Source: an uncultured bacterium
Lineage (GTDB): Bacteria > Verrucomicrobiota > Verrucomicrobiia > Verrucomicrobiales > Akkermansiaceae
DNA: 64,000 nt
NCBI GenBank assembly: GCA_945831585.1
Contig: CAMACY010000002.1
Span: forward strand, 1-64,000
Reading direction: 5' to 3'
Below, one piece after another: positions 57,618 to 62,253 of the stretch. Positions within the stretch are counted from its first letter, which is position 1. Each line of letters opens with the position of its first letter. The notes under the pieces are model-generated. The model made no database searches and was not told the DNA's origin. It saw only the letters and a program-made list of their open reading frames with translations. Made by a program: the position numbers and the translations under genes.

Positions 57618-58508
57618 ATGAAAACTAAATGCTTCTTCCTCTGGCTTGCTCTGTCGGCTTTTCCGGCGGGGGCGGCGTGGCAGTACAACTTGCCGGACAC
57701 GGGCTTGCTGCCCTATGCGGCGCGTGTTTCGGGCACCAACGCCATGGGGGAGCGCCACGGGGGCTCCACCCTGCAGTGGGAGCGCGTCAACGTGCAGGTG
57801 CCGCTGGCCGACCCCTTCCGCAGCGGGGGCGAGGGCTGGATGTTCAACGCGAGCCTGGGGCTGGATTGGACGCATTTAAAGGCAACGGGGCCGGTGCGCC
57901 CGGAGCACGAGGAGCTTTTCACGATGAGACTTCCGCTGGGGGTGGTCTGCCCCTTGGCGCAGGGGCAGCATGTGGCTTTTTGCTTTCTCCCCACGGTGGC
58001 GACGGACGGCGCGGGCAGCGGGCACAGCTTTGTGCCGGTCAGCGCGGTGGATTACCGCCTGTGTCGGAGTGAGACCTTTACCTGCTCCGTGGGGCTGGTC
58101 TACGATTCGCACACCATCGACAGCTACGTGTCGCCCTATCTCACCTTTGTCTGGAAACCGACGCCGGACTGGCGCATCAGCCTGACGGACTGCGCCCTGC
58201 GCGGCATGCGCGAGCTGGGCGGCGGCTGGGCGGCCGGGCTGTTTGCCGGCGGCGTGTTCGGCACCTGGGCGATGCACGAGCAGGAGGGCACCACGCTGCT
58301 GCGCCTGCGTACGCTGGTGGTGGGCGCGCGGGTGGAGCGCGAGTTCTCCCGCAACGAGCACACCACGAGCTTCTTCTTTGCGGATGTGGGCTCGACGCTC
58401 ACAACCTCGCTGCAGCGCGTGCGTCCCCGCGCGCTCGATGAGCCCCTATCGAATCACCATTACCACCCCGGGCTCTACGTGTCGCTGGGCTTTGACTGCC
58501 GCTTCTGA
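57618..58508 (+). CDS. Outer-membrane beta-barrel protein (DUF6268-like)
   Basis: The 296-residue product has a signal peptide (MKTKCFFLWLALSAFPAGAA) and many amphipathic strands. One hairpin contains LGLDWTHLKATG, another LVVGARVEREFSRNEHTTSF, and it ends GLYVSLGFDCRF with terminal Phe. The spacing of strands resembles DUF6268-type barrels, but this is a visual impression. It has its own leaderless promoter, divergent from the NlpC/P60-like gene. Confidence 0.7.
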   Translation: MKTKCFFLWLALSAFPAGAAWQYNLPDTGLLPYAARVSGTNAMGERHGGSTLQWERVNVQVPLADPFRSGGEGWMFNASLGLDWTHLKATGPVRPEHEELFTMRLPLGVVCPLAQGQHVAFCFLPTVATDGAGSGHSFVPVSAVDYRLCRSETFTCSVGLVYDSHTIDSYVSPYLTFVWKPTPDWRISLTDCALRGMRELGGGWAAGLFAGGVFGTWAMHEQEGTTLLRLRTLVVGARVEREFSRNEHTTSFFFADVGSTLTTSLQRVRPRALDEPLSNHHYHPGLYVSLGFDCRF

Positions 58509-58610: not shown

Positions 58611-59150
58611 TCAGTGTCGGCGGCGGCGCTTGCGCTTGGGCGGGCGGCTCGGGTGCTGGCGCTCCAGCTCCACCTGCATGAGCAGGAGGGTGAAGAGCCC
58701 GGCGGCGCTGATGCGGACCGGCGAGTGCTCGGACACCGCCGCCGCGAGCTCGACCGTGCGCCGCAGCTCGGCGGCGTATTCCTCCGGGTCAATGTCCGGC
58801 AGGGTGTTGCTCACCTGCACGTGCAGCAGCATGAGCGCGCGGTAGAAGGACGGCCAGTTGTCGGAAGGACCGGCGGCGAGAGCCGCCATCAGCTCGGCGG
58901 GCAGGGCGTTGAGCGTGCGCTCCAGCGCGCGCAGGCGGCAGCGCAGGCGTCGGTCGGTCGCCCCGGCCAAGGCGGCCTCCAGCCGATGGCGCAGCGGCGT
59001 CTCCCAAGCGCCGTAGGTCTCCAGCACGGCGAGCGGCACATGCCCCGGCTCGGGGGGCGCGCTGCCCTCGCGTCGCACCAGCTCCTCGAAGAGACGCTCG
59101 ATGGCTTCTAAGCGCCCCTGCGGGCTCAGGCTGGTAGATTCAAAGAGCAT
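58611..59150 (-). CDS. Hypothetical helical protein with basic tail
   Basis: The 179-residue product is nearly all helical, rich in Leu, Ala, Arg and Glu, with no signal peptide or membrane span. It ends in PPKRKRRRRH, a strongly basic tail suggesting contact with nucleic acid or membrane. No family is recognised. It lies 6 bases after the GH95 stop and is the third gene of the FHA-GH95 operon, so its product is made with them. Confidence 0.62.
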   Translation of the reverse strand: MLFESTSLSPQGRLEAIERLFEELVRREGSAPPEPGHVPLAVLETYGAWETPLRHRLEAALAGATDRRLRCRLRALERTLNALPAELMAALAAGPSDNWPSFYRALMLLHVQVSNTLPDIDPEEYAAELRRTVELAAAVSEHSPVRISAAGLFTLLLMQVELERQHPSRPPKRKRRRRH

Positions 59151-59156
59151 GGAAGC

Positions 59157-61631
59157 TCAGGCGGCGCTTTTCCCCTTGGCTTTCTTGGCCTTTTTCTTGT
59201 TCGGGGCGCTGTATTCGGGCACGACCTTCTTCTTCTCCCCATTGACTACCAGCGTCACTTCCGGGGGATTCTTGGTGCTTGTGCTGAGTTTGTAGTGGGT
59301 TACCTTGCCGTTTTTCCACTCCATGTCTACGGTGATGTTGCCGCGCGCGCGGATGCCGCGCACATGACCCTCGCTCCAAGCCTCGGGCAGCGCCGGCAGC
59401 AGCGCGATTTCCTCCGCATGGCTTTGCAGCAGGAGCTCGCTCATGCCGCCCGTGATGCCGTAGGTGCCGTCCATCTGCATGGGTGGGTGGTTGCCGAAAA
59501 GGTTGTCGAGAACATTGTGCGTCAGGTAGCCCCGCACCATCTCATAAGCCTTTTCCGGCTTGAGGAAACGCGCCCACAGGGCGGCGCGCCAGGGCCAGGT
59601 CCAGCTGCGGCGGTTGTCGCCGCCCATGCCGCGCAGCTCCAAGCTCTTCTCGGCAGCGGCGGCCAGTTCGGGCGTGCGCGCGGGCGAGATGATGGTGCCG
59701 GGGAACACGCCGATGAGGTGAGAGGTGTGGCGGTGACCGGCCACCATGTTGGGGCGGTCGATAATCCATTCCTGCAGGTAGCCGCCGGGCGCCACACGCT
59801 CGGGCGCAAGCCGCTTAGCCTTGTCCTGCAACTTGGACGCCCAGCCGCTGTCCACCCCCAGTTCCCCGGCCGCTTTGGCGGTGTTGCGGAAGAGCTCGCG
59901 GATGAGCTGGTGGTCGTGCGAGACGCCGTCCTCCACGGGACCCCACTCGTGCGACCAGCCGTTGGGCGCCACGAGGGTGCCCTTGGGCAGCTTCTTCAGC
60001 TCGGGGTGCTGCGCGGCGCTGAGCGGTTTGCCGGCCGAGATGAGCCCCTGACCATCGGCGCCCAGTTCCTTGAGCTGCGATTCCCAGAAGGCGCAGATGT
60101 TCTTCATGACGGGGTAGGCCGTATCCTGCAGGTACTCCTTGTCGCGCGTGAAGGTGTAGTGATCCCAAATGTGCAGCGCATACCAGGCATTGACCGGCGG
60201 GTTCCACTTGCTCCAACCGCCGCCGCCCCAGGGGTTTTGCGAGATGCGGGTCGTCCAGCCGGGCGTGCCCTTGCCGAACTGCTTTTCCGTCATGCGGTGC
60301 AGGGGTGCTTCCATGGCTTTGAGGTAGTCGATGAGCGTGCGGTGGCACTCGGAGAGGTTGCCCACCTCGGCGCCCCAGTAGCACATCTGCAGGTTGATGT
60401 TGTTGTGGTAGTCGCAGGCCCAGGCGGCGTGCACGGCATCGTTCCAGATGCCTTGCAGAGTCAGCGGCAGATTACCCGGCCGCGAGCCGCTGATGAGCAC
60501 ATAGCGCCCGTACTGGTAGGCCAGCGCCTCCAGCTCGGGGTCGCTGCCGCCCTTGCGGTAGCGCGCCAGACGCTCATCGGTCGGCAGCTTGGCTGCGGAT
60601 TCCTCGGTCTTGCCCAGGTGGATGCTCAGGCGTTTGAAGAGCTTGCTGAAGTCCGCGATGTGGCTCTTGCGGATGTCCTTGAGCGATTTCTTCGTCACGG
60701 CGGTCAGCACCTTCTTGTTGAGCTGGGCGGGGTCGCTGCCCTTCCAGTCGGCGGCGTCGTCCATCTTGTAGTCCGTGGCGAGGCTGATGTAGAGTTCCGC
60801 GCTGTCGGCCTTGGAGATACTGATGGCGGGCGCCCCCTTGAGGTCGAAGACGGGTACCTGTTCGCGCGCCGGCTTGCCCTCGTAGGTGACGGCAACGGCC
60901 TTGCCGCTGCCCGTGAGCTTGGCGGAGGCTTTTTTGCCCTTGACGCGCACGAACACACGCCCCTCGAACTTCTCGCCGTTGGCCAGCGTGCCGCGCATGA
61001 TGAGGGTATTCTCGGCGCCGCTGTAGCTGACATCGTGGCAGGGGGCGAGCGCCACCTTGGCATTGATGCTGCCTTCTTTGTCCGCGCTCATGGTATACAC
61101 GAGCACCTTGTCGGGGTGGCTGGCGAAGCATTCGCGGCGGTGGTGCACCCCGCCGTTGGCGAATTCGACCGTGGCGATGCCGGTGCTGAGGTTGAGCGAG
61201 CGGCTGTACTCCGTGCTCTTGCCGGGGAGTTCGCTCTGAATGTAGAGATTGCCGAAAGGCTGGTAGGAGCCGAACTCATCCTTGCCGGCCTTGGGGCCGA
61301 AGGAGTATCCGGCGCCGTTGTTGGGCAGGTTGCGACCGCCTGTCCACAGGCTGCTCTCGTTGAGATTGAGGCGCTCCAGATGGTCACCGCCGAAAATGGT
61401 GGCACCCAGCCGCCCATTGCCCACGGGCAGGGTTTGCGATTCCCAAATGCGGTGGGGCGAGGTTTGGGCGGCGGATTTGCCGACATTGGACTCGCCGTCG
61501 ACCTTGCCCCAGGGCAGGGCGGCGGGGTGGACATAGGCGGGCTGCTGATACCAAAGGACGGGGGCGTCATCGGCCGCATACGCGGGGAGCAGCAGACCGA
61601 CTGCCGACAGAAGCATGGGGGCGGATTTCAT
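59157..61631 (-). CDS. GH95-family alpha-L-fucosidase
   Basis: GH95 enzymes mostly remove terminal alpha-1,2-fucose from host glycans. The 824-residue product has a signal peptide (MKSAPMLLSAVGLLLPAYAA), the N-terminal beta domain (ESQTLPVGNGRLGATIFGG, LNESSLWTGG) and the (alpha/alpha)6 barrel. Barrel segments are LQGIWNDAVHAAWACDYHNN and INLQMCYWGAEVGNL, which hold the catalytic Asn pair. Glu in APNGWSHEWGP and Asp in MQMDGTYGITGGMSELLLQS are also kept. The C terminus is unusually Lys-rich (NKKKAKKAKGKSAA). It sits second in an operon, 3 bases after an FHA gene. Confidence 0.9.
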   Translation of the reverse strand: MKSAPMLLSAVGLLLPAYAADDAPVLWYQQPAYVHPAALPWGKVDGESNVGKSAAQTSPHRIWESQTLPVGNGRLGATIFGGDHLERLNLNESSLWTGGRNLPNNGAGYSFGPKAGKDEFGSYQPFGNLYIQSELPGKSTEYSRSLNLSTGIATVEFANGGVHHRRECFASHPDKVLVYTMSADKEGSINAKVALAPCHDVSYSGAENTLIMRGTLANGEKFEGRVFVRVKGKKASAKLTGSGKAVAVTYEGKPAREQVPVFDLKGAPAISISKADSAELYISLATDYKMDDAADWKGSDPAQLNKKVLTAVTKKSLKDIRKSHIADFSKLFKRLSIHLGKTEESAAKLPTDERLARYRKGGSDPELEALAYQYGRYVLISGSRPGNLPLTLQGIWNDAVHAAWACDYHNNINLQMCYWGAEVGNLSECHRTLIDYLKAMEAPLHRMTEKQFGKGTPGWTTRISQNPWGGGGWSKWNPPVNAWYALHIWDHYTFTRDKEYLQDTAYPVMKNICAFWESQLKELGADGQGLISAGKPLSAAQHPELKKLPKGTLVAPNGWSHEWGPVEDGVSHDHQLIRELFRNTAKAAGELGVDSGWASKLQDKAKRLAPERVAPGGYLQEWIIDRPNMVAGHRHTSHLIGVFPGTIISPARTPELAAAAEKSLELRGMGGDNRRSWTWPWRAALWARFLKPEKAYEMVRGYLTHNVLDNLFGNHPPMQMDGTYGITGGMSELLLQSHAEEIALLPALPEAWSEGHVRGIRARGNITVDMEWKNGKVTHYKLSTSTKNPPEVTLVVNGEKKKVVPEYSAPNKKKAKKAKGKSAA

Positions 61632-61634
61632 GTT

Positions 61635-62171
61635 TCAGAGAAGAAAGCTGATGGTGATGTCCACAGCGGCGAGGCGCAGCGTGTCGCCGTCCAAAAGGGT
61701 CATCGCGGTGTTGGGAGCGAGCGGTATGCCGTTGACCGCGCTGCCGTTCGTCGAGCCGAGATCGCGGGCGGTGACGCCCTGATCGCCGAGCTCCAGCAGC
61801 ACATGGCGGCGCGAGATGCCGGGGTCATCCAACAAAAGGTCTGCCAGCTCGGGCGAGCGCCCGATGCTGACGCCGCCGGGGCGGGTGAGCTCGCTGAAGG
61901 GAACGGCGATGTCCCACCGGGAACCATCGCTCAGGGTGGCACTCAGGCGCAGGCAGTCGTGCGGGAGCTCGGGCGCTTCCGCAGGTATCTCCGGCTCTTC
62001 CTGCGGCTCCGGTGCCTTCGCTACATCGGCGGATGGGGGAGCCGCCGAAACATCCTGCAGAGCCCATTCGGTTGCGCGGCGGGCGGCGATGACGGATCTC
62101 AACGCCTCGAGCTCCTGCTCCAGAGCGGCAGCGCGTTGTTCCAGCTCAGCGATGCTGACCTCCGTGCTCAT
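61635..62171 (-). CDS. FHA-domain protein
   Basis: FHA domains bind phosphothreonine. The 178-residue product has an N-terminal coiled-coil-like helix (EVSIAELEQRAAALEQELEA), a Pro/Glu-rich linker and a complete FHA domain at about 95-178 (VSIGRSPELADLLLDDPGIS, RRHVLLEL, LGSTNGSAVNG). The GR, SRRH and STNG hallmarks are intact. ATG 62171 is chosen because the in-frame ATG 62183 overlaps the -10 box. It is first in the operon with GH95. A cognate kinase is not visible in the window. Confidence 0.88.
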   Translation of the reverse strand: MSTEVSIAELEQRAAALEQELEALRSVIAARRATEWALQDVSAAPPSADVAKAPEPQEEPEIPAEAPELPHDCLRLSATLSDGSRWDIAVPFSELTRPGGVSIGRSPELADLLLDDPGISRRHVLLELGDQGVTARDLGSTNGSAVNGIPLAPNTAMTLLDGDTLRLAAVDITISFLL

Positions 62172-62181
62172 GATGCTGCCC

Positions 62182-62211
62182 ATACTACCAAAGCAGACGG
62201 GCAGGGCGCAA
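62182..62211 (-). promoter_or_regulatory. promoter of FHA-GH95 operon
   Basis: Minus-strand -35 TTGCGC (62206-62211), 18-base spacer and -10 TAGTAT (62182-62187), then 10 bases to ATG 62171. Confidence 0.65.
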
Positions 62212-62253
62212 GCTCAAAATACATGCCGCCCGCGCTTTCACGCGATGGGCAGG

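Follow-up and report, generated by a model that had tools for sequence, protein, structure and literature searches.

On balance, we read three genes of the analyzed window, a 64,000-nucleotide stretch of DNA from a 1.92 Mb draft genome, as a co-expressed string, whose core would be an old, probably translationally coupled pair of an FHA-domain gene and a GH95 fucosidase gene in a herbivore-gut branch of Akkermansia. The three genes are encoded on the minus strand. The FHA-domain protein (182 aa; 61635..62183; Pfam FHA, PF00498, E 7.7e-15) is followed by the GH95 alpha-L-fucosidase (824 aa; 59157..61631; Pfam GH95 catalytic domain, E 4.4e-129), and a gap of 3 bases (61632..61634) separates the stop codon of the former from the start codon of the latter (TGA AAC ATG). 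A second gap, of 6 bases (59151..59156), leads from the GH95 stop to an ORF without known family, which encodes a six-helix protein with a K/R-rich C-terminal tail (179 aa; 58611..59150). The earlier note had described these genes as one tight operon; their common strand and both gaps are confirmed in the sequence, and the trio does lie within the span 58611-62211 given there, but the FHA ORF starts at 62183 and not at 62211. A spacer of 70 bases (62184..62253), in which the promoter scan found no sigma-70-like promoter, separates the stop of folE2 from the FHA start; since folE2 lies on the same strand this close upstream, the trio transcript may begin earlier. Inside the string, the same scan, which is weak evidence, detected neither a sigma-70-like site nor a minus-strand terminator, and no Shine-Dalgarno-like sequence was recognized upstream of GH95 or the third gene in this genome. 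Elsewhere in the window, an ORF convergent with the third gene (57618-58508, plus strand) has a signal-peptide-like start and no family above cut-off, and its homolog occurs near the FHA gene in G019 (locus L081); pdxH lies about 5 kb from the trio.

Relatives of the FHA protein were identified in 52 of the 59 genomes of the genus, and relatives of the fucosidase in 55 of the 59. The neighborhood was read for 55 genomes with an orthologous FHA gene (G036, whose FHA protein is of a different, membrane-anchored type, was left out), and GH95 was mapped by tblastn for the linkage counts, because some gene calls in G013, G033, G059, and G193 are on the wrong strand. A full-length GH95 gene is located directly downstream of the FHA gene on the same strand in 33 of these 55 genomes; the two genes do not adjoin in 19, are separated by pdxH on the other strand in two (G063 and G077), and in one (G059) only a GH95 remnant is found beside the FHA gene. 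The gap between the paired genes ranges in most relatives from -4 (an ATGA overlap) to about +30 bases, and the stop and start codons overlap in five genomes, as ATGA in G002, G006, and G030 and as TGATG in G020 and G026; most of the other junctions have gaps of 3-28 bases. The full trio occurs in 11 genomes, so that the order is not unique to the source genome, and the promoter scan, itself weak evidence, gave no sign of independent promoters inside the string; the refuting case named in the earlier note, a unique order combined with independent promoters, thus does not apply. The claim of the earlier note that the three products are made together thus gains from the recurring linkage and from the overlapping codons found in some relatives. 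We regard the FHA–GH95 pairing as genuinely conserved in this Akkermansia branch.

The pairing has also been broken repeatedly. In the unlinked genomes, the gene next to FHA is mutS, metK, an ankyrin-repeat gene, an aldo-keto reductase gene, pdxH, or others (the mutS, metK, ankyrin, and aldo-keto reductase names were read from the sequence, not from a family scan), and, by the test applied, none of the 19 unlinked loci sits at the end of a contig. We considered FHA as a general glycosidase partner and rejected this, as no glycosidase was recognized downstream in genomes without an adjacent GH95. A GH95 relative was not found in G029 and G071, although FHA occurs there. In G195 and G196, the FHA gene stands between genes c16 and c26, an order that G194 shares with GH95 in between; thus, GH95 appears to have been cleanly deleted from these two genomes with FHA retained. 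On the GH95 tree, for which the root is a midpoint only, linked genomes fall on both sides of the midpoint split, and the pair is therefore probably ancestral and was broken later. Four genomes have pdxH as the immediate neighbor of FHA, encoded on the opposite strand (L118 in G063, L184 in G077, L075 in G016, and L183 in G200). On contig C35 of G059 (L132, L186), the FHA gene and the third gene are both intact, with a GH95 remnant of ~260 bases in between, and a full GH95 lies elsewhere in that genome.

The FHA protein consists of a coiled-coil-like N-terminal segment (approximately residues 8-38), an acidic linker, and a C-terminal FHA domain (residues 105-171), with no signal peptide or membrane segment seen. 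The domain scores 55.5 bits, above the curated cut-off of 20.7, and the best PDB matches of the AlphaFold model of an ortholog are FHA domains. The GR, SRxH, and STNG elements and the N of the binding face are intact (window residues 108-109, 124-127, 144-147, and 151), and the invariant positions of the alignment (A2) are G108, R109, S124, R125, H127, D141, S144, N146, G147, and N151; the protein thus keeps its predicted phosphothreonine-binding site. Its orthologs share the N-terminal coiled coil and the C-terminal FHA domain, and most of them carry in between a linker motif, xIxLxPLxxxDxLRxKWxLGxGL, termed here the KW motif (examples at L138:3875-4495 and L130:6413-7123). A profile of this motif alone matches 53 of 76 genomes of the genus with E below 1e-4. 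It is absent from the source genome, from G019, and from larger genomes without an FHA ortholog (e.g., G004, G017, G070, and G074), and a search of the family and order outside the genus gave only weak, chance-like matches. We also considered whether the motif belongs to other proteins, and rejected this: the strong in-genus matches for which loci were read all fall in the FHA ortholog. The KW motif of this FHA subfamily is undescribed. A second FHA gene of the source genome (L002; G000:C9, about 241-780) encodes an N-terminal FHA domain and a C-terminal membrane segment, a layout resembling the FHA-plus-membrane proteins of G004 and G036.

In the fucosidase, the N-terminal, catalytic, and C-terminal GH95 domains (PF14498, PF22124, and PF21307) are all above cut-off, and the solved structures nearest to the enzyme are 7ZNZ (E 7e-223) and 7ZO0, both of FucOB. 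Residues N385, N387, E541, and D699 of FucOB were reported to be critical (PMC10063614); they align to N411, N413, E562, and D721 of the window protein, so that the predicted catalytic residues are all kept. A specificity for alpha-1,2-linked fucose, as in FucOB, is predicted from this alignment. The GH95 family also includes other specificities. By eye, the protein begins with a Sec-type signal peptide (MKSAPMLLSAVGLLLPAYA/AD). Lys-rich GH95 tails are common in clades that include the source genome and are missing from the main pair-only clade; in the enzymes of G061 (L103) and G073 (L109), a C-terminal membrane anchor comes after a Lys-rich stretch and takes the place of the free basic tail, and the enzyme of G020 has a lipobox-like start. 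The KRKRRRRH and KKKAKKAKGK tails of the third protein and the fucosidase, which the earlier note had pointed out as unusual, are present and are unusual beyond chance: among the 744 proteins longer than 100 aa that were called in the surroundings of these loci, 30 have at least seven K/R in the last 15 residues, and 22 of these 30 belong to GH95 (13) or the third family (9). The fucosidase activity of A. muciniphila is mainly cell-attached (PMC10067855), and we infer that the basic tail may retain the enzyme on the envelope.

The third protein was found in 28 of 59 relatives, all of the same genus. Its gene follows GH95 in 11 genomes including the source genome, at distances of 10 to 348 bases in the trio genomes other than this one; it comes after FHA in G019, which has no GH95 at that place, and in G059, which has a remnant there; and in many genomes it is located away from GH95 in a different neighborhood. 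Since it accompanies the pair in only 11 genomes and has another neighborhood elsewhere, the third gene is probably a later arrival behind FHA–GH95. A common set of convergent genes, which encode a DnaJ-domain protein, an epimerase, IspD, and YqeY, often comes after it in both the outgroup clade and the trio clade, and these shared neighbors suggest that the third gene originally stood beside them and moved behind FHA–GH95 later. The protein has six predicted helices (AlphaFold mean pLDDT 82) and a pI of about 5.3 without its tail, i.e., an acidic core in this genome, whereas the K/R-rich tail is kept across the family. No family in Pfam, NCBIfam, PHROGs, or PADLOC was above cut-off, with no defense or phage families among PHROGs and PADLOC, and Foldseek gave no significant fold match. 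An assignment to the antitoxin family Unstab_antitox was rejected (13.3 of 23.3 bits, below cut-off, in 1 of 20 members only). When 117 genomes of the family were searched with a profile, the protein was recovered in five, all in this genus, and its named relatives are all from metagenome-assembled genomes that carry the label Akkermansia or Akkermansiaceae, with ruminants, rabbits, and other herbivores as the main sources. As judged by these searches, the third protein belongs to a family that is undescribed and confined to a single branch of the genus.

Thus, we propose the following scheme. The FHA protein would be a cytosolic phosphothreonine-binding adaptor with a function of its own; because its stop codon touches, overlaps, or nears the fucosidase start, the fucosidase would be translated in step with it, presumably by reinitiation on a single transcript. 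The fucosidase would then be exported via the Sec route, remove alpha-1,2-linked fucose from host mucus glycans, and probably be held on the cell envelope, here by its basic tail and in some relatives by a lipobox or a membrane anchor. The helical protein would have joined downstream in part of the branch and, in the source genome, share the same message. As FHA stands apart from GH95 in 19 of 55 genomes, the coupling is not required, and a pairing that is old and common but breakable looks like shared expression, rather than a dedicated signaling or secretion machine.

The earlier note had suggested a signaling or secretion-related module around host-glycan use. In a dedicated signaling module, the FHA protein would read a phosphothreonine signal of a Ser/Thr kinase and control the production or export of the fucosidase, for example by attaching to a regulator or export partner that is phosphorylated when mucus sugars are sensed. 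The intact phosphothreonine site, the tight pair kept in 33 of 55 genomes, and the KW linker, which looks like a docking element, agree with such a module, as does the presence of four Ser/Thr kinases in the genome. These kinases are encoded on contigs C3, C16, C20, and C56, however, with none on the window contig (C2), and the only homolog of any of them near the relatives' loci is a fragment ~8 kb away in G016, so that the search for a linked kinase came out negative. Moreover, no secretion genes were recognized in the region checked around the trio, FHA is retained at loci that hold mutS, metK, ankyrin, or other genes instead of GH95, the FHA protein of the source genome lacks the KW motif and the pair is still kept there, and there are loci from which GH95 has disappeared but in which FHA, and in two cases the third gene, remains. 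We therefore regard the module as improbable. Somewhat more doubtful still is a variant in which the FHA protein of mucus-living Akkermansia belongs to an undescribed phosphothreonine-controlled switch for the output or export of the fucosidase; in most species the KW motif would serve as its docking element, and the tight FHA–GH95 junction would fix the ratio of the two products. The evidence, as far as gene order and sequence features go, supports coupled FHA–GH95 expression rather than signaling or secretion.

The pair could also be an inherited neighborhood without functional tie, in which an ancestral order has been kept and compact genomes keep short gaps. Repeated loss of the linkage without loss of FHA, the other neighbors of the third gene in many genomes, and the clade-wise distribution of the trio and pair states on the tree are all consistent with this. 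Yet both flanks have been reshuffled at the same divergence at which the FHA–GH95 junction was kept, with overlapping codons in five genomes: among 22 linked genomes, only 6-13% of genome pairs share a family at positions 1-4 on the upstream side of FHA or at positions 2-4 beyond GH95, and 32% do so just after GH95, mainly owing to the third gene (these 22 were picked for linkage, so that 33 of 55 is the fair measure of the pair as such). We consider inheritance alone unlikely. A role of the helical protein as a nucleic-acid-binding regulator of the string would fit its conserved K/R-rich tail on a helical core, acidic in this genome, and its weak top Foldseek matches to S23/Avd-type bundles; these matches are not significant (E 0.3), the profile comparison with the S23 family gave a probability of 0.2%, and the third gene lies apart from GH95 in many genomes, which makes such a role very improbable.

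In the open-licence papers searched for FHA together with Akkermansia or GH95, we found no report of the FHA–GH95 pair. A functional coupling would link eukaryote-like phosphothreonine signaling with host-mucus foraging in Akkermansia, a connection likewise unreported in the papers searched. Even if the coupling is not functional, the locus points to two lineage-specific protein features that no family model covers, namely the FHA subfamily with the KW motif and the family of helical proteins with a basic tail.

Among known systems, the FHA adaptors of the OdhI/GarA and FhaB type share with the FHA protein a single FHA domain, an intact phosphothreonine site, and a cytosolic location predicted by sequence; however, the protein described here has an N-terminal coiled coil, and most of its orthologs the KW motif, and its score as OdhI/GarA is 32.6 bits against a cut-off of 200. 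With the secretion-associated FHA proteins TagH (type VI) and SctD (type III) it has only the FHA domain in common, and both assignments were rejected (31.3 of 120.25 and 18.5 of 86 bits, respectively). The third protein resembles the S23/Avd four-helix proteins (PF05635) in being all-helical and in its weak Foldseek similarity, but there is no sequence or profile relation, and with no Pfam match, Foldseek E 0.3, and 0.2% in hhalign, membership was rejected; S23-type proteins are numerous in relatives (15 in G010), with none found in the source genome. The fucosidase is closest to FucOB (AmGH95B, Amuc_1120) and other GH95 alpha-1,2-fucosidases in its GH95 domains, four catalytic residues, and signal peptide. 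It differs from FucOB, the gene of which adjoins the mucinase gene ogpA in A. muciniphila (PMC10063614), in having an FHA gene directly upstream and a Lys-rich C-terminal tail.
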